Part shown: positions 4,466 to 13,753 of the stretch, one piece after another
Numbering within the stretch: position 1 is the first letter of the stretch
Layout of the letters: the number at the start of each line of letters is the position of its first letter
Origin: a virus
DNA: 25,087 nt
Direction: 5' to 3' (one strand)
IMG/VR virus record: IMGVR_UViG_3300022074_000350
Location: 1-25,087 of that record
Made by a program: the position numbers and the translations under genes
The notes under the pieces: generated by a model
What the model was told of the DNA's origin: nothing
What the model saw: the letters and a program-made list of their open reading frames with translations, nothing else
Database searches by the model: none

Positions 4466-5698
4466 ATGGCAATAAGATCAGAAGATTTATATCTCAGCAT
4501 ACCAAATGCGAGTCCATTATTTTCAAAACTTGCGATATCAAGTCAGTTCAAGGTATCGTTAGATCTTGTACGTAGAAGTCAAGTTGGAGATAATGTAGGA
4601 TTGCTTGAGTACTTAACTAATTGTGGATTATTTAATGAAGGAAGTTCATCAAGTCAAACATATGATTTCCTTTGTTCATCAGCATCGTTACCTGGTTCTA
4701 ACTTTAACATCTCAGAAGAGATGGGAAGTCGTCAGGGAATGACAGAAAGATTTGCATCAAGAAGAATATATAACGAATTTGATTTAACTTTTTATATTGA
4801 TAGTGATTACAATGCATTACGTATGCTTGAGGAGTGGATGAATTTTATCAATCCAGTTTATAATGAGTCAAATGGTAGATATGATGGAGCAGAGGGAAGT
4901 CAATTAAATTCATATCGAGAGAGAAATACATATTCAAGATTTAGATATCCAGATGATTATCGAAGAAAGATATCTATCACTAAATTTGAAAAAGATTTTT
5001 TACAGAATCCAAATGATAGAAATAATACATTTAAGAATATGCCACTGTTGACTTATCATTTTATTGATACGTTTCCCGTTAATATTAATGCTGTTCCAAT
5101 GTCTTATGATGGAAGCACATTCTTACAAGTCACTGCTGTATTCACTTACTTAAGACACACAGTTGAAAAACACGGTAATGCACAACAATCAGTTAGAGAG
5201 GCACTTTTAAATAGACAATTGACTCAAGTAAATCCTCTCAGACCAAGAGCAATTGGAAGAGAGATAGCACCTAGCACTAACAGTCCTATACCAACAGCAC
5301 CAGTTGGATATGTAAGTGGTAAACCATACTACGGGCCATATCATGAACACATGGGTGTGAAAATGGTAGGAGAAGAACATGTAAGTACACCACATGCTAT
5401 AATATACGATACATTAGCAGAGAGTTTACCAGGTAGTATTGTTTCTGGCCCAACAGTGACAGAAACTAATCCAGCAACTGAAGAAGAAACTGAAGCTGGA
5501 GAAGGAACATCTACAACAACAACTACGACTGAAACTAGTCAAGGAGAAACCACCACAACAGAAACTACAACCACTACAACAACCACTGATTCCTCTGGAT
5601 CAACGAGTTCAAGCACCAGTTCCTCATCATCTTCAAGTTCTTCTTCTTCCTCTGGGTCAAGTTCCTCTGGTGGTGGATACAGTGGTTATTATTACTAA
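4466..5698 (+). CDS. gp54: Baseplate tail-tube initiator gp54 with C-terminal extension
   Basis: Residues 1-235 match the gp54/gp19 tube-like fold that nucleates the tail tube on the baseplate: a FKVSLDL strand, LLCSSASLPGS region, FDLTFYIDSDYNALRMLEEWMNFI helix segment, and the FPVNINAVPMSYDGSTFLQVTAVFTY closing strand pair. T4 gp54 is 320 aa; this is 410. The extra C-terminus has two parts. Residues 279-321 form a module (PVGYVSG, GPYHEH, GVKMVG, IIYDTLAESL) that recurs in the 844-aa hub protein at 11219. Residues 322-410 are a Thr- then Ser-rich tail ending GGGYSGYYY. The fold body should sit at the tube base; the extension may protrude. No Shine-Dalgarno lies at normal spacing. Confidence 0.9.
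   Translation: MAIRSEDLYLSIPNASPLFSKLAISSQFKVSLDLVRRSQVGDNVGLLEYLTNCGLFNEGSSSSQTYDFLCSSASLPGSNFNISEEMGSRQGMTERFASRRIYNEFDLTFYIDSDYNALRMLEEWMNFINPVYNESNGRYDGAEGSQLNSYRERNTYSRFRYPDDYRRKISITKFEKDFLQNPNDRNNTFKNMPLLTYHFIDTFPVNINAVPMSYDGSTFLQVTAVFTYLRHTVEKHGNAQQSVREALLNRQLTQVNPLRPRAIGREIAPSTNSPIPTAPVGYVSGKPYYGPYHEHMGVKMVGEEHVSTPHAIIYDTLAESLPGSIVSGPTVTETNPATEEETEAGEGTSTTTTTTETSQGETTTTETTTTTTTTDSSGSTSSSTSSSSSSSSSSSSGSSSSGGGYSGYYY
5300..5428 (+). repeat. Shared 43-residue C-terminal module, copy 1 (in gp54)
   Basis: This encodes gp54 residues 279-321. Copy 2 is at 13418-13546. Both are exactly 43 codons and share PVG-(Y/F)-V, G-x2-Y-x-GPYH, GVKM-x-G-x2-H and IIYDT-x2-ESL. The resemblance is at protein level; the DNA has diverged. 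Histidines in the GPYHEH and later positions could bind metal, but in copy 2 only the first is kept. Confidence 0.85.
5505..5695 (+). repeat. Thr/Ser-rich low-complexity tail of gp54
   Basis: The region encodes a Thr/Glu-rich stretch, then a run of 12 or more serines, then Gly/Tyr. The serine run uses mixed codons (TCA, TCT, TCC, AGT), so it is kept as an amino-acid run and is not a simple DNA microsatellite. It resembles mucin-like or flexible-linker segments. Confidence 0.8.
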
Positions 5699-5731: not shown

Positions 5732-6457
5732 ATGCCTTTACCACAGATATCGACTCCGACTTATGAACTGACTATACCATCTTCTAAGAAGAAAATAAAG
5801 TATAGACCTTTTCTTGTAAGAGAGGAGAAAATTTTAATTCTTGCATTAGAGAGTGAGAATGAAAAACAAATTGCAGAAGCAATTAAATCAACTTTAAAAT
5901 CTTGTATAATTACAAGAGGTGTAAAAATAGAAGCCCTATCAACATTCGACATTGAATATGTTTTCTTGAATATACGTGGAAAATCTGTTGGTGAATCTGT
6001 AGATTTGATTGTAACTTGTCCTGATGATATGAAAACTAAGGTGGAAACTAAAATTTATATTGATGAAATAAAAATTGTTAATGATGAAAATCACAATTGT
6101 GACATTAAATTAGATAGTAACTTGACCTTAAGAATGAGATATCCATCTCTGAATGAGTTTATCAAAAATAATTTTAATTTTAATAGTGAGGGTAAGGAAT
6201 CAATAGAACAATCTTTTGATCTAATTGCTTCTTGTATTGATGTTGTTTATAGTGAGGATGAATCTTGGGCAGCTTCTGATTGCACTAAGAAGGAATTGGT
6301 TGATTGGTTGGGTTCTTTAGATTCTAAACAATTTAAAGAAGTTGAATCGTTCTTTCAAACAATGCCTAAGTTATCTCATACTTTTAAAGTGACCAACCCA
6401 GAAACAAAGGTTGAAAGTGAAGTGACGTTGGAGGGTTTATCGAGTTTTTTCGAATAG
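5732..6457 (+). CDS. gp26: Baseplate hub / tail assembly chaperone-like protein gp26
   Basis: This 241-aa protein is of the marine gp26 type, annotated in T4-like phages as a baseplate hub subunit. Residues 8-45 hold the signature TYELTIPSSKKKIKYRPF, then VREEKILILALES. The EYVFLNIRGKSVGESV segment near residue 75 follows, a pattern also found in tail assembly chaperones of other long-tailed phages. Its end is unusual: the codons AGT TTT TTC GAA TAG contain the T_TTT_TTC slippery heptamer, and a -1 slip there would replace the last residue and fuse the product to the next gene, giving about 301 aa. That suggests the protein works as the G-like partner of a G/GT chaperone pair that recruits the tape measure, an inference from layout. 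No Shine-Dalgarno is seen at its own start; a GAATAAAT stretch lies just upstream (5720-5727). Confidence 0.85.
   Translation: MPLPQISTPTYELTIPSSKKKIKYRPFLVREEKILILALESENEKQIAEAIKSTLKSCIITRGVKIEALSTFDIEYVFLNIRGKSVGESVDLIVTCPDDMKTKVETKIYIDEIKIVNDENHNCDIKLDSNLTLRMRYPSLNEFIKNNFNFNSEGKESIEQSFDLIASCIDVVYSEDESWAASDCTKKELVDWLGSLDSKQFKEVESFFQTMPKLSHTFKVTNPETKVESEVTLEGLSSFFE
6430..6451 (+). promoter_or_regulatory. Probable programmed -1 ribosomal frameshift signal
   Basis: The gp26 frame reads AGT TTT TTC GAA TAG, so the heptamer T_TTT_TTC (6445-6451) is in the correct register for tandem -1 slippage. GGAGGG (6430-6435) lies 9 bases upstream, the spacing at which an internal Shine-Dalgarno stimulates -1 frameshifting in bacterial genes such as dnaX. 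It is 24 bases from the next ATG at 6460, too far to act as that start's ribosome site. After slippage the frame reads CGA ATA GTC ATG and enters the 58-aa gene with no stop. The predicted fusion is 301 aa (5732-6636). No strong hairpin is evident downstream. The role is inferred; no expression data exist here. Confidence 0.7.
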
Positions 6458-6459
6458 TC

Positions 6460-6636
6460 ATGGCTCATATGAATCTTGAGTCATATTATAAACTTAACTT
6501 CGCCCTAATGCAACACCATAAATATTCTTTGACTGAAATTGAAAATATGATGCCTTGGGAAAGGGAAATCTACACTGGATTATTATCTCAATATGTAGAA
6601 GAAGAAAATCTAAAAGCAAAACAAGCAAGTATGTAG
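6460..6636 (+). CDS. 58-aa tail assembly protein; likely T-like half of a frameshifted chaperone
   Basis: This short gene starts with ATG at 6460 (a second ATG at 6469) and ends with TAG at 6634-6636. The product contains LNFALMQHHKYSLTEIENM and MPWEREIYTGLLSQYVEEEN, a helical, strongly conserved-looking pattern with a Trp-Glu-Arg centre. It resembles the small T domains fused to tail chaperones by frameshifting, and the C-terminal part of marine phage proteins between gp26 and the hub genes. It may be made alone, as an extension of gp26 by -1 frameshifting, or both. Its own start lacks a well-spaced Shine-Dalgarno, which favours the fusion. A relation to the hub assembly protein gp51 is possible from position but not shown. 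Confidence 0.75.
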   Translation: MAHMNLESYYKLNFALMQHHKYSLTEIENMMPWEREIYTGLLSQYVEEENLKAKQASM

Positions 6637-6639
6637 GAA

Positions 6640-8097
6640 ATGAAATCCACTATTTCTCCAACAAGTGTTGTCAATCCTTTAAGCAGAGGATTGTTTACTG
6701 CTGCGAAAAATAGTGTATCAAGAGTTAAAGATACTACAGAAAAGATATCAAAGGTAAGTGATAAGAATCAAAAATTCGCAATGAATTTTGTAGAATTTTT
6801 TGGAAGTAAAAAGAATGCAAAAATATTAAAGAAAAGTTTAGAGTCAATTAAAAAGTCTTTAGTTTCTACATTAGAGATTGCAAAGGCATTGAAGAGTTCT
6901 CTTAATGATATGACCAAAATGAAAAAAGGTCGTGGTGGTTTATTTTCAGGAGGAGGATTATTTAGTGGTGGATTGGGTGGATTAGTTGGTGGTGGATTAA
7001 CAGCATTATTCGGAAAGGCCGCTTTAATCACACTCGGAGTTCTTGCGGTAGGTGGACTAGGTGCATTACTTTATTTTAATAGGGATGCTATCTTTAATTT
7101 TTTTGAAACTAATATTGGTAGGTTTAAAAATTTTATTAAACCATTAGTAGATAATGCACTTAAAGATATTTTTCGTCCACAGGTGTTAAAAAATGAAGAT
7201 AAAATTGCAAGGGATGAGGTTGATAAAGAATATCAAAAATTATTAAAAGAAAGAGAAGATGGTTTAATTACAGGAAGTGATGATCAATTATTCAATGCAG
7301 CTACTGCAACTGTCATAAAGGCATTAGAAAAAGATAAAGAAGGAGCAAAAGGTAGTCCAAGAGCACAAGAAAGACTGCAGAGACAAATTAATACGTTGAA
7401 AGGTATAGACAATCTTGGAATATTTGATGAAAAAACTAACATGATTATGGCATTCTCTGCGATGCTTGGAAGAGCTGCTACAACATCCACTCTTTTTGAA
7501 AATAGTCCTGCTAATTATGCAGGAAAATCAAATAATGAAAAATTAAGTTTGATAAGAAAAGAAATTTCTGATAATAATAACAATTTAGTTTCTGTAAGAT
7601 CTAAAATGTCTGATCTATTTGAAAAAGGTAGACCTAATGCAGATGAAAAAGCTTTCGCTGTTGATTTGTTAAGTTATATTGATGCTCTTAGGAGTGAGGA
7701 TAAGGAATTAATAGAGGGATTCACACCACCAAGTTCCAACATTGGTAACATCACAGATTTAAATAAAACAGTTAAACAGTTTCAAGGTTCAAAATTATTA
7801 CAAGGTGGAGGAAAAGACCCACTTTTTGATGCTAGTACTTTAGAAGCTGATAAAACAACATATGAAGATTTATTGCCACCACCTCCACCACCAAAAAATG
7901 ATGATGATCTTCGAAAAATTAATGAAAATAGTTCATTTAATCAAGATAATACTGCAAGTAATGTTAATAAAAATGGTAATCTTATAGGTTCTAATACTCC
8001 ATCTGGTAATGGTTCTGGACTTTTTGCATTCATTCCAACAAAACCAGTAGATGGATATAATTTTTCTAGTATCACTTATGGAATTGTAGGAGCGTAG
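6640..8097 (+). CDS. Tail tape-measure / hub-like structural protein
   Basis: This is a 485-aa protein of no securely recognised family. It has a Lys-rich helical N-terminal part (about residues 20-95), then a Gly-rich hydrophobic stretch at 97-147 (repeated GGLFSGG and GGLxGG units followed by ALITLGVLAVGGLGALL) that could be a membrane-active helix. A long charged helical middle follows, then six prolines at 413-418 and an Asn-rich C-terminus. Gly/Ala hydrophobic helices within helical proteins are typical of tape measures, and the gene follows the chaperone pair as tape measures usually do. In T4 the tape measure is gp29 (590 aa). The start is the first in-frame ATG after a stop. The only Shine-Dalgarno-like AGGA is unusually close (about 2 bases). 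Confidence 0.7.
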   Translation: MKSTISPTSVVNPLSRGLFTAAKNSVSRVKDTTEKISKVSDKNQKFAMNFVEFFGSKKNAKILKKSLESIKKSLVSTLEIAKALKSSLNDMTKMKKGRGGLFSGGGLFSGGLGGLVGGGLTALFGKAALITLGVLAVGGLGALLYFNRDAIFNFFETNIGRFKNFIKPLVDNALKDIFRPQVLKNEDKIARDEVDKEYQKLLKEREDGLITGSDDQLFNAATATVIKALEKDKEGAKGSPRAQERLQRQINTLKGIDNLGIFDEKTNMIMAFSAMLGRAATTSTLFENSPANYAGKSNNEKLSLIRKEISDNNNNLVSVRSKMSDLFEKGRPNADEKAFAVDLLSYIDALRSEDKELIEGFTPPSSNIGNITDLNKTVKQFQGSKLLQGGGKDPLFDASTLEADKTTYEDLLPPPPPPKNDDDLRKINENSSFNQDNTASNVNKNGNLIGSNTPSGNGSGLFAFIPTKPVDGYNFSSITYGIVGA

Positions 8098-8105
8098 GAT
8101 AGAAT

Positions 8106-9614
8106 ATGTTACTTAATAATTCACCACTTAAAAATACATCAGAAAAATTAAAGTCTCCACAGACCTCAATAAAAACTTTAAAAATTGAACGGAAGAAGGA
8201 CTTTAAATCATTTTTAAAATACATTGAAAAAGAATCAAAAGCATTAGAGGATATAAAACTACCATCTTTAAACGATGCAAAAAATAAAAAATCATCTTTA
8301 CTTGGATCTGCATTAGGATTGGGTGCTCTTGGACTACTTGCATTTTTTGCTGGTGGTGAAGGCGATGGTGATCCAAATGATCAACCAAATAAATTTGATT
8401 ACTTTGATCCAGAAGCATTCAAAAGAACTCTTAGTAATCAAACTCGGATTGCAAGTTTATCATATACTGGAATGAAAGCCGCTAATTTTTTCGATGATGG
8501 TCAAGGTAATAAAAAGAAACTTTTAAAACCTAAAAAAGGTGGTGATGATTTACAAAATACTAAATTTGGACAATTTGCAAATCAGAACATGCTTTTTGGT
8601 GAAGATTATAGTCCATTCAATAACAAACAACTTAAGAAAAGTTCTATTGTGACTGATCTATTAGCAGAGGTTGATGAGGATATGGGTGTGACTGAGGAAT
8701 ATAAAAAGAAGAAAAGAATCGAAAAATTAAAAAAGAAAATAGGAGTTGGAGTTGAAGAAGTAGGAGGAAGAAAACAAAAATCAAAAGTTGTTACTATAGA
8801 TGATTTTATTAAGGCTGATGATCCTTTTAATGTAGACCCTAAAAAAAATAAAGGATTTAAAAATCCAAAAGTAGCGTTAAATGAAATTAAAAAAGAGTAT
8901 AGTAAATTTAAAAAACCTAATTTTTTTAGTGGTACTTCTGCTAATGCTAATGCTAATAAAACACTCACTATTGATGATCCAGCATTTGACCTTAATAATT
9001 TAATTGATTCTGATGAAATAAACAGTAACTTAGGTAATAAAGCAAAAGGACAAGTTGCAACAGAAAATGTAAATGATGCAATAGATAAAAAAGGTTTTTA
9101 CAAAAAACCTCAAAAGAATAGATTTCAAAAGTTTTTTGATACTGGTATACCAGAGAAATTTGCAAAAGGAGCCCTCACTTTATTAAACTTTGGAGGCAAA
9201 ATTTTACAAGTAGAACCACTCATTAAACCACTTTTATCTCCAGATGCTTTTGAAGAGGGAACTATGACTTCTGTGATGGATGTTTTTGGAAATATGCCAG
9301 GTGATCCTAATTTTGATGTAGATTCGAAGGGTATATATTCTGATTACATTGATGTCACTGACCCAAGAGCAATTGAAGAAATGAAACAGATAAAAATTAA
9401 CTACCTCACAAAAAAAATGATAACTGGTGATATTCAAGCACCAAACTTTACAGGAGGATTAAATTATGATGATCTTTCTATACCACCAGTCAATTTTCAA
9501 CCTCCTGTTGAAGGAAACAGTGATAAAGTAGTTCCTTTTATACTTCCAGAAGGAGATGATATCATATCATCTCATCTTGATTCGTTGATACTATTGGAGT
9601 TGGAGAGGTACTAA
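8106..9614 (+). CDS. Second tape-measure / hub-like structural protein
   Basis: This 502-aa protein is Lys- and Asn-rich and not securely assigned. It has a charged N-terminus, a short hydrophobic Gly/Ala/Leu segment at about residues 63-85 (LLGSALGLGALGLLAFFAGG), and a very basic run near 200 (EEYKKKKRIEKLKKKIG). The C-terminal half is acidic and Pro-rich. The architecture (basic helix, Gly-rich hydrophobic helix, long soluble part) mirrors the preceding 485-aa protein, so the two may be an old duplication or a split tape measure/hub. AGGA at 7 bases spacing supports the start. Its TAA overlaps the gp27-like ATG by one base, implying coupling. Confidence 0.68.
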   Translation: MLLNNSPLKNTSEKLKSPQTSIKTLKIERKKDFKSFLKYIEKESKALEDIKLPSLNDAKNKKSSLLGSALGLGALGLLAFFAGGEGDGDPNDQPNKFDYFDPEAFKRTLSNQTRIASLSYTGMKAANFFDDGQGNKKKLLKPKKGGDDLQNTKFGQFANQNMLFGEDYSPFNNKQLKKSSIVTDLLAEVDEDMGVTEEYKKKKRIEKLKKKIGVGVEEVGGRKQKSKVVTIDDFIKADDPFNVDPKKNKGFKNPKVALNEIKKEYSKFKKPNFFSGTSANANANKTLTIDDPAFDLNNLIDSDEINSNLGNKAKGQVATENVNDAIDKKGFYKKPQKNRFQKFFDTGIPEKFAKGALTLLNFGGKILQVEPLIKPLLSPDAFEEGTMTSVMDVFGNMPGDPNFDVDSKGIYSDYIDVTDPRAIEEMKQIKINYLTKKMITGDIQAPNFTGGLNYDDLSIPPVNFQPPVEGNSDKVVPFILPEGDDIISSHLDSLILLELERY

Positions 9615-10991: not shown

Positions 10992-11219
10992 ATGAAAAGC
11001 ATAGAAGACCATATTGCAAAGGATAAAGAAATCCTTGCTAATCCAAGCACCTCTGAAGCAATGAAGAGACATACAGTAGAAGAGTTACATGAACTCGAAG
11101 AGTATGTTGATCATCATCATGACGAAATTGAAGCAGGTGATCATCACGATCCGAATGCATTAGAATTATTCTGTGATATGCATCCTGATGAACCAGAGTG
11201 TTTAGTATATGACGACTAA
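10992..11219 (+). CDS. Small acidic, His-rich conserved protein
   Basis: This 75-aa protein of unknown function has the best ribosome site in the window, AGGAGG at 10981-10986 with 5-base spacing. The N-terminal half is helical (DHIAKDKEILANPSTSEAMK, then VEELHELEEY). The C-terminal half holds clustered His/Asp (DHHHDE, GDHHDP), then ALELFCDMHP and the ending PECLVYDD with two cysteines, so metal binding is conceivable. Its TAA overlaps the next ATG by one base. I believe similar small proteins accompany hub genes in other T4-like cyanophages, from memory. A chaperone or assembly role for the 844-aa protein is inferred from coupling only. Confidence 0.8.
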   Translation: MKSIEDHIAKDKEILANPSTSEAMKRHTVEELHELEEYVDHHHDEIEAGDHHDPNALELFCDMHPDEPECLVYDD

Positions 11220-13753
11220 TGAGCTTAGATAATCTTTACATAAAACCTGGTATCAGTGGATTTAATGGGCATGTAACTTTCACAGCGAAAGTTATGCCTG
11301 AAAAAGAATGGAAACCACAAAATGATTTTCTGTCATTAACTGGTTTGCAGAATTTTAGAATAAAGATACGTATAATAGGTTTGGATTCACCAAACAAAGA
11401 AATTCAGCCCGATAATGAAACTCGTTGGGCGATAGTTTCTAGTCCTGCACATCTTGGAGGTGGAGCAAAGGGACTAGGAGAAACTTTGGTGCTTTCAGGT
11501 GGTGAGACTGTTTGTGGTTATTTTCTAGACGGTGAAGACGGACAACAAGCAGTGGTTACAAATCTGTTGAATTGTAGTTTTAAGGATGTTGAAAATCATC
11601 TTAATAGTTCAAATGCATTTGCAAGTACATTTGAAAGCGATGGGTTGGGCCAACATTTGTATAATTATGAACAATTTAGTCAAGACTTTCCCACAGCCAA
11701 TTATTGGCAAGGTGGTGATCAGTCAAATGCAGGAATTGGATTTGCTGATGCAACTAATATAAAAATCGGTAGTTTTTCTATTTGTGGAACTGATACAGTT
11801 AGTAAAACTAAAGATAAAATTAGTGAATTTATAAAGACGATGAGGACTGCCCAAAAGTTAGGAGGAAAGGTTCTTGATCCAGTCACAAATGAAATTATTA
11901 ACATGCAAGATGACATTGCAGTTCTTAAGGGTCAAGTTTCAGGAATATTGAAGGGAACAGTAAATGTAATCAGAAAGAAAATTATAAAAAAAATCAATGA
12001 TGAGTTAAAGAAAAAGGCAAAAAAGAAAAAAACAACAGCAGAGGGAATAGGTACAGCACAAGATAATAAAGATAAAGTATCTGATAATGTAGTTGCAAGT
12101 TTAATTGGTTGTCTTTTTAAGGGTGTTCTTGGATCTATTGGCTCATTCTTAACTAACATGTTTAATAATCTTTTGAATAATGTTCTGAATGGAGCATTAT
12201 GTGCCATTGAACAATTCATATCTGGTATCTTTGCTAAAGTATTTGATTCAATCGAAAAGGGATTGGCATCAATTATGAGTGGATTGAGTGGATTAACAGG
12301 GGCCCTTTCTTCAGTCACTGGTCTTTTTGGAAAAGCTGCTAGTTTTGCAGGTAACATTTTAGAATTTCTTGATAAGTGTCTTCCAGAGGATGAAAAATGT
12401 ATCAATTTAGATTCTAAAGTGTGGAGCTCTTCAACTAATAGTTCAAAGAAAGTAAAGAAGGATAATTGGGAAGATCAAGTTAAAAATATAAATGTATTCA
12501 AAGGTATAAGTAAAGGACTTACAAATCTCCAGAATGATATAGTTAAGGGTAGTCAGGATGTACAAAATTTAGATTATAATGGTGTTCCTTTGGAAACAAC
12601 GGTGAGATCTACAAGTATCTTAACTGGTGGATCTTCTAATGCTTTAGTAGACAAAGGATTGGGATCAATTGAAAGTGCAATATCTCAGTCTTCATTATTT
12701 GGATTGGGTAATAATAGATTTGATGCTTGCAATCAGAAAGTAAATAATCCTACTTCACAAGAGGATATCACACCTACAAGACCAGGATACATTTATCCAA
12801 CATGCATACCACCCATTGCAGAAGTATCTGGATCTGGATCTGGTGCAGAACTTCTTGTTATTGTCGGTAATGATAGAAGAATATTCTCAATCGAAGTTAT
12901 AAATGGTGGATCTGGATATGATCAACATGCAGGTATATCAATAACTGACAATACTGGAAACGGAACTGGTGCATATGCAAGAGCAGTCGTAACTGATGGA
13001 GTTATTACTCAAGTTGTTTTGATGAGTACTGGTTATGGTTACTGTTTGAATACAACAGATGATGAATCAGTTGGAATTGGAACTAATGTTGTTGGGGTGA
13101 TAGATGACATATTTGTTGATAGACCAGGATATAATTATGATCCAGAGGACACCGTTGTTGTTGGTGATGATAATTTCCCAATTATTACAACTCCTGATGG
13201 TTCGATAGGAGAGGTTACTGTTCCATCAAATTATGATAACGAATTTTCATCAACTCCCACCATAACAATGAATACTAAAACTGGAGTCGGTGTAAAATTG
13301 ATACCTATTATGAAGTTTACACCTCAATTCAAAACAGATGCTAACGCAGATAAGAGAAAGGCAGCACCACTCATTGGAATTGATAATGTGGTTGATTGTA
13401 TTGGTGATAACAGAGATCCTGTTGGTTTTGTCAATGGTGCTGAATATTCTGGGCCTTATCATGTAATGTCGAGTGGTGTAAAAATGACAGGAGCAATACA
13501 TGGTGTGTCAGATTCAATAATTTATGATACAATAGAAGAGAGTCTAAGTAATCCTGTAGTATCATCTTCTTCTTATGAAACTCCTACTGGAACAGTAGCA
13601 GAGACTCCTACTGAAACAACAACTGTGGATACAACCCCAACAATTGTGACAAACCCTACGACTCCGACTATGGATACAACCACCACAACAGATACATCTA
13701 CATCAACTGGAACGGATTCAAGTTCCTCTAGTGGTGGATATGGAGGATACTAA
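11219..13753 (+). CDS. gp5-like OB-fold hub protein, 844 aa, no lysozyme domain
   Basis: Residues about 45-118 form a gp5/VgrG-type OB fold: FRIKIRIIGLDSP, WAIVSSP, then a Gly-rich loop and VCGYFLDGEDGQQAVV, close to T4 gp5 around its V-x-G-x-FLD site. The T4 gp5 lysozyme domain is not seen. Instead residues 190-290 are helical and very basic, 293-394 are a long hydrophobic/amphipathic region (SLIGCLFKGVLGSIGSFLTN, FISGIFAKVFDSI and so on) that could be membrane active, and 535-700 are beta repeats with INGGSGYD and GYGY units. Residues 734-776 repeat the module of gp54 and 777-844 are a Thr/Ser tail ending GGYGGY. It is coupled by TAATG overlaps to both neighbours. It probably caps the hub and carries the spike. 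The OB assignment is good; the rest is inference. Confidence 0.75.
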   Translation: MSLDNLYIKPGISGFNGHVTFTAKVMPEKEWKPQNDFLSLTGLQNFRIKIRIIGLDSPNKEIQPDNETRWAIVSSPAHLGGGAKGLGETLVLSGGETVCGYFLDGEDGQQAVVTNLLNCSFKDVENHLNSSNAFASTFESDGLGQHLYNYEQFSQDFPTANYWQGGDQSNAGIGFADATNIKIGSFSICGTDTVSKTKDKISEFIKTMRTAQKLGGKVLDPVTNEIINMQDDIAVLKGQVSGILKGTVNVIRKKIIKKINDELKKKAKKKKTTAEGIGTAQDNKDKVSDNVVASLIGCLFKGVLGSIGSFLTNMFNNLLNNVLNGALCAIEQFISGIFAKVFDSIEKGLASIMSGLSGLTGALSSVTGLFGKAASFAGNILEFLDKCLPEDEKCINLDSKVWSSSTNSSKKVKKDNWEDQVKNINVFKGISKGLTNLQNDIVKGSQDVQNLDYNGVPLETTVRSTSILTGGSSNALVDKGLGSIESAISQSSLFGLGNNRFDACNQKVNNPTSQEDITPTRPGYIYPTCIPPIAEVSGSGSGAELLVIVGNDRRIFSIEVINGGSGYDQHAGISITDNTGNGTGAYARAVVTDGVITQVVLMSTGYGYCLNTTDDESVGIGTNVVGVIDDIFVDRPGYNYDPEDTVVVGDDNFPIITTPDGSIGEVTVPSNYDNEFSSTPTITMNTKTGVGVKLIPIMKFTPQFKTDANADKRKAAPLIGIDNVVDCIGDNRDPVGFVNGAEYSGPYHVMSSGVKMTGAIHGVSDSIIYDTIEESLSNPVVSSSSYETPTGTVAETPTETTTVDTTPTIVTNPTTPTMDTTTTTDTSTSTGTDSSSSSGGYGGY
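13418..13546 (+). repeat. Shared 43-residue C-terminal module, copy 2 (in the OB-fold hub protein)
   Basis: This encodes residues 734-776: PVGFVNG, YSGPYH, GVKMTG, IIYDTIEESL. It is the counterpart of copy 1 at 5300-5428, with the same length and the same spot before a Thr/Ser-rich tail. The second His of GPYHEH is absent here. Confidence 0.85.
13600..13740 (+). repeat. Thr/Ser-rich low-complexity tail of the OB-fold hub protein
   Basis: It encodes a Thr/Pro-rich run followed by a serine run and the terminal GGYGGY. As in gp54 the codons are mixed (ACA, ACT, ACC, ACG for Thr), which argues for selection on the protein. Confidence 0.8.

Follow-up and report, generated by a model that had tools for sequence, protein, structure and literature searches.

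A conserved slippery heptamer at the end of gene 26 in T4-like cyanophages probably yields a gp51-like second form of a tail assembly chaperone by -1 frameshifting

The window analyzed here is a virus record of 25,087 bases whose gene order, compared with that of P-SSM2, is that of a T4-like cyanophage. At the 3' end of its gp26 gene lies a slippery heptamer from which a -1 frameshift would extend the 241-aa protein into a predicted fusion of 301 aa. Judging from the sequences, we consider it very likely that gp26 and this longer form are a pair of tail assembly chaperones of the lambda G/GT kind. An earlier, sequence-only reading of the window had proposed such a pair from gp26 and the 58-aa gene behind it; the proposal is supported by T4 gp51, with which the fusion is colinear, and, weakly, by the top match of the gp26 model among known structures. 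Computational comparison of relatives brings out a conserved signal and frame, a stem-loop and the gp51 colinearity, and from these we infer that ribosomes slip here, how efficiently they do so and what each form binds.

Recoding signal at the end of gp26

The gp26 gene matches Pfam PF12322 (T4_baseplate, E 9e-72) and phrog_150 (baseplate hub, E 1e-77), so that a full-length profile match places it significantly within the T4 gp26/gp51 family. Its 3' end reads GAG GGT TTA TCG AGT TTT TTC GAA TAG in the zero frame, which gives the protein the C-terminus ...SSFFE and puts the TAG stop at 6455-6457. The locus comprises the following features.

5732-6457, + strand: gp26, 241 aa, predicted to be the shorter chaperone (TAC-N, equivalent to lambda gpG); PF12322, phrog_150, AlphaFold2 model
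6430-6435, + strand: GGAGGG, putative SD-like stimulator, separated from the heptamer by 9 nt; anti-SD match, GAG choice
6445-6451, + strand: slippery heptamer T_TTT_TTC in the gp26 zero frame; 254/257 loci, codon-choice statistics
6451-6636, + strand: -1 frame extension, putative C-terminal 'T' domain, containing the 58-aa ORF (6460-6636); phrog_634, phrog_150, gp51 annotation
6460-6484, + strand: putative stimulatory stem-loop of 8 bp, 6460-6467 ATGGCTCA with 6477-6484 TGAGTCAT; MFE z, compensatory changes

The register of T_TTT_TTC at 6445-6451, close to the gp26 stop, suits simultaneous -1 slippage exactly as the sequence-only reading had it, and its other observations on the letters also hold: GGAGGG lies 9 bases 5' of the heptamer, the -1 frame beyond the slip site (TTT TTT CGA ATA GTC ATG...) runs stop-free through 6636 and into the 58-aa gene, and the ATG of that gene, at 6460, lacks a Shine-Dalgarno sequence at any distance up to 20 nt. 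Taken from the window alone, the heptamer could be there by chance. Among the 7575 codons of the window's genes there are 45 in-frame heptamers of the X_XXY_YYZ type, so that about one is expected by chance in the last ten codons of 17 genes, and it is the comparison with relatives that decides. A second heptamer, G_GGT_TTA, occurs six codons before the gp26 stop; it was rejected as a slip site, being absent as a conserved feature in close relatives.

Conservation and codon choice

The heptamer is present in all 81 close relatives (loci with 63-100% gp26 identity), and the 58-aa homologue is in the -1 frame wherever it could be placed among them. Across 257 loci with a complete gp26, from cyanophages and other T4-superfamily phages, an in-frame T_TTT_TT[C/T/A] was found in 254 (T_TTT_TTC in 220, T_TTT_TTT in 33 and T_TTT_TTA in one), and in each of these that is long enough the -1 ORF is intact. 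When the 257 loci are grouped at 70% protein identity, 44 of the 46 clusters carry the heptamer. Heptamer-bearing phages include pf16, KVP40-like phi-pp2, AsFcp2, ZPAH1, Moby, IG49 and nACB2, and the hosts of such phages include cyanobacteria, Pseudomonas, Aeromonas, Vibrio, Stenotrophomonas, Rhizobium/Agrobacterium and Acinetobacter. The expectation that heptamer, frame and distance would be kept in related phages was thus borne out, and the locus has the conserved zero-frame slippery heptamer that characterizes programmed -1 frameshifting.

Synonymous codon choice argues that the conserved signal is in the nucleotides and not in the protein alone. In the 44 heptamer-bearing clusters, on which the cluster-level tests were computed (the two exception clusters lie outside), T is without exception the last base of the codon that precedes the two Phe codons (25.7 expected, P 1e-12). 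Of these two, the first is always TTT (26.7 expected, P 6e-12), and TTC stands second in 34 clusters (17.3 expected, P 2e-8). At other Phe-Phe pairs of gp26 genes, T_TTT_TTC appears in 3 of 311 cases.

Flanking stimulators

GGAGGG is the best anti-SD match among the 8-mers of gp26. The Glu codon that forms GAGGG is GAG at 83 of 112 unique sites, compared with 28% elsewhere (P 6e-24), and in 16 of 26 clusters where 8.1 would be expected (P 7e-4). This preference is seen mainly in the window's clade, with weaker purine-rich matches in other lineages. The suggestion that the upstream element would be conserved therefore stands for that clade, in the choice of GAG over GAA, and weakens in other lineages.

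On the other side of the heptamer, an 8-nt spacer leads to the 8-bp stem, which closes a 9-nt loop; this structure was missed in the first sequence-only reading. Against synonymous shuffles that preserve the -1 frame protein, the MFE z of the window is -3.4 (p 0.013). The stem-loop reaches p<0.05 in 24 of 44 lineages, with a mean z of -1.8, and is absent or not significant in 20. In 32 distinct sequences with a shared register, 92% of cells are paired, as against 19-42% with slid partners. Three stem pairs show compensatory changes on both sides in a one-register subset, and alignment folding agrees. Hairpins of different sequence or register occur in a similar place elsewhere, such as ATGATGCAC/GTGCATCAT in ME01 and GCCTCT/AGAGGC in marine contigs, and some other lineages have no hairpin at all. 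RNAalifold returned no structure on the mixed clade, probably because the stem register varies among lineages. An SD-like element upstream and a structure downstream, both at functional spacing, are thus found in the window's clade and are weak or missing in some lineages.

The fusion as a gp51 counterpart

The 58-aa part matches phrog_634, 'baseplate hub assembly catalyst' (E 3e-27), its homologue is annotated as gp51 in P-SSM2 and cyanophages, and the -1 extension also matches columns 240-278 of phrog_150. The phrog_634 family in turn matches residues 147-246 of T4 gp51 (E 1e-23). When a profile of the whole fusion was compared with the gp51 family, represented by full-length gp51 of T4, 44RR, QL01 and EC-F2, columns 12-288 of 303 aligned to columns 6-251 of 255 (probability 99.4%, E 1.3e-21). 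This alignment runs through the junction, where the fusion-side segment is ...SSFFRIVMAHMNLESYYKLN...; T4 gp26 aligns to columns 11-238 only, and its end is the slip site. These alignments indicate that the unshifted product is the counterpart of T4 gene 26 and the shifted product that of T4 gene 51.

About 1330 phage records contain a full-length gp51, from phages of Escherichia, Klebsiella, Acinetobacter, Aeromonas and other hosts. The gp51 of cyanophages and marine vibriophages has been described as lacking its first ~200 residues (Sullivan et al. 2010, PMC3037559), and a frameshift would explain this: the cyanophage protein looks truncated because the gp51 equivalent is the frameshift product. 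The 'baseplate hub assembly catalyst' gene annotated in hundreds of genomes is then most likely no gene of its own, and other genomes overlook it.

Alternative explanations

Termination at TAG followed by reinitiation at ATG 6460 could produce the 58-aa ORF as a separate protein, with no frameshift. The ATG lies 2 nt past the gp26 stop in the window and in most close relatives, and database records annotate a gp51 gene of its own. Among the 254 heptamer loci, however, 113 have no ATG in the 12 codons past the slip site and 96 have no ATG, GTG or TTG there, yet the frame is still kept; 20 of the 44 clusters are entirely startless, and the annotations of S-CAM1 and ACG-2014h show no gene at the position of the -1 ORF. 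Since the frame is retained in startless loci, it is most unlikely that independent translation is how the 58-aa part is generally made. Nor would a separate protein account for the codon choice at the heptamer; ATG 6460 is without an SD, and its conservation is explained in part by its place in the stem arm. We regard this explanation as quite unlikely, and reinitiation may be an addition to the frameshift where an ATG exists. Before or across this start, the -1 frame of the window type encodes the tryptic peptides IVMAHMNLESYYK and VESEVTLEGLSSFFR; the S-SM1 counterpart, before or across the annotated gp51 start, is IALMHSDLK.

The other two explanations turn on the T run and on the residues it encodes. 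Since the slip site is a homopolymer run, RNA polymerase might slip on it and add a base, the -1 frame then being read from altered transcripts. Yet 221 of the 254 loci have T6 and the other 33 have T7, never a longer run, which is short for efficient transcriptional slippage; the last base of the heptamer is C in preference to background, and the SD-like element and the hairpin are spaced as a ribosome would require, which suits translation; the chance that transcription is responsible appears very small. Alternatively, TTTTTTC might be kept solely for the terminal Phe-Phe of the protein, which is invariant across the gp26 alignment, the -1 ORF being incidental. Such a requirement fits neither the non-random synonymous choice at all three codons nor the content of the -1 ORF, which encodes a conserved domain present in fused form in T4 gp51. 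It is strongly disfavoured, and we give it next to no weight.

Proposed mechanism and chaperone function

With frameshifting as the preferred explanation, ribosomes translating gp26 would reach AGT_TTT_TTC, and most would continue to the TAG and release the 241-aa short form. A fraction would be slowed as GGAGGG pairs with 16S rRNA behind them and the hairpin stands ahead, and these would slip one base back, both tRNA-Phe re-pairing as TTT TTT. The shifted ribosomes would then read CGA ATA GTC ATG... and produce the 301-aa protein, which is gp26 with a helical C-terminal domain. As tail assembly chaperones like lambda gpG and gpGT, the two forms would coat the tape measure with their common part, and the extra C-terminal domain may engage tail tube or hub subunits.

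A short form and a C-terminally extended form, as expected of tail chaperones, are both predicted, the extension being supplied by the -1 frame here and naturally fused in T4 gp51. The AlphaFold2 model of gp26 (pLDDT 86.6) was compared with 350,542 PDB chains, and the HK97 tail assembly chaperone 2ob9 came out at ranks 1 and 3, although these are weak matches, not significant by E-value (prob 0.54, E 0.27-1.3, query TM about 0.2). For T4, both gp26 and gp51 have been classed as chaperones of hub assembly; assembly requires gp51, which the finished particle does not contain (PMC3004832).

Tape measure candidates and neighbouring genes

Two genes downstream of the chaperone locus come into question as the tape measure.

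6640-8097, + strand: 485-aa helical protein, tape measure candidate; one hydrophobic segment near residue 128
8106-9614, + strand: 502-aa protein, another candidate for the tape measure or for a hub protein; weak profile match of its P-SSM2 counterpart by position

The 485-aa gene, which directly follows the chaperone locus, had been named as the tape measure, an assignment that neither profile nor fold matches back. Profile searches gave no family match for it or for the 502-aa gene, and an iterated HMM of the 485-aa gene against the RHph tape measure, T4 gp29 and KVP40, pf16 and S-SM1 proteins reached a best E of 0.13. The AlphaFold2 model of the protein is poor (pLDDT 53), and a fold search with it returned no match. 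Its position and its helical character with a single hydrophobic segment fit a tape measure weakly, and the 502-aa gene is an equally good candidate; the P-SSM2 protein at the position of the latter has a weak tape-measure profile match (E 0.002). In RHph_I1_18, a chaperone gene lies upstream of the tape measure gene with one ORF between them.

The position of the 485-aa gene evolves fast, the proteins encoded there in relatives being mostly about 400-700 aa long with a conserved N-terminus, and in many relatives the first gene past the chaperone overlaps the -1 ORF by a few bases. Elsewhere in the window, a CP12-like gene (PF02672, E 4e-12), a photosynthesis-related type of host gene, sits within the baseplate gene run at 10992-11219. 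By eye, the proteins encoded at 4466-5698 (tail-tube-like) and 11219-13753 (hub/lysozyme-like) have in common a C-terminal motif, Y.GPYH...GVKM.G..H....IIYDT..ESL, followed in both by a Ser/Thr-rich tail.

Exceptions and evolution

The heptamer is missing, but the -1 ORF retained, in Ackermannviridae (Kuttervirus and Taipeivirus: SFP10, KN2-1 and loci L266-L280) and in Vibrio phage D492, whose gp26 genes end in GAR ATT TTC ATT TAA or CTT TTC AAG TAA. At these junctions the standard rules would allow nothing but the slip of a single tRNA on T_TTC, and some Kuttervirus loci have a -1 stop so close upstream that any shift is confined to the last codons. A locus search starting from the Vibrio D492 gp26 found no relatives. 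The gp26 3' ends of the Ackermannviridae (L092, L095 and L266-L280) are almost invariant, reading ATTTTCATTTAATTTTTGAAATTG, with an intact -1 ORF and no canonical heptamer.

T4 appears to have replaced the frameshift by a duplicated, pre-fused gene. We offer, as a tentative reading on which we would not insist, that frameshifting was the ancestral chaperone route of the T4 superfamily, that the T4 branch turned to duplication with gene 51 fused in place, and that the Ackermannviridae turned to a non-canonical slip at ATT_TTC_ATT_TAA. In Pseudotevenvirus EC-F2 (L263:2237-2794), the gene immediately behind the long gp51-like one encodes 185 aa and is possibly a short paralogue, in which case the copies are in tandem and not divergent as in T4.

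Comparison with known systems

T4 gp26 is homologous to the zero-frame protein and T4 gp51 to the whole fusion, but T4 encodes them in two separate genes on opposite strands, without a frameshift. Recoding in cyanophages and duplication in T4 would form a natural pair of solutions to the making of two chaperone forms.

The G-T frameshift has been reviewed as widely conserved 'except T4' (Atkins et al. 2016, PMC5009743), an exception that cyanophages and many T4 relatives would now leave. The remark in the sequence-only reading that T4-like phages are usually thought to lack it is out of date, and the core idea is already known: T4-like chaperone genes were identified by Vladimirov, Gautam and Davidson (Virology 2022, 566:9-15), according to two papers that cite them. 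One, on PRFect (PMC10885494), refers to them for some T4-like phages that have a short gene and, apart from it, a fused long one; the other, on phage Adele (PMC12846349), credits them with polyT slippery sites in T4-like TAC-N genes. Much of the principle had therefore been published before. In the literature searched we found no account of how widely the signal occurs among cyanophages and in marine contigs, nor of the hairpin, the lineages without a start codon or the exceptions among Ackermannviridae, and Vladimirov et al. may cover them.

Like lambda gpG/gpGT, the locus would combine a short form with a low-level -1 extension in a tail cluster near the tape-measure gene (PMC5009743). The signal here is T_TTT_TTC with an SD-like element and a hairpin, gp26 is larger, and the two systems are likened by their design. 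The lambda G/GT heptamer is G_GGA_AAG. In the Vandenendeviridae and Andersonviridae, the tail assembly chaperone is likewise extended by a -1 frameshift, at GTTTTT, and the extension misannotated as a gene of its own (PMC12846349). Those are other phage families, and the likeness is one of mechanism and annotation. The dnaX -1 frameshift resembles the present signal in that an SD-like sequence precedes the slip site by about 10 nt and a hairpin follows it, but dnaX is a cellular gene that shifts at A_AAA_AAG, and its product is shortened, not lengthened.
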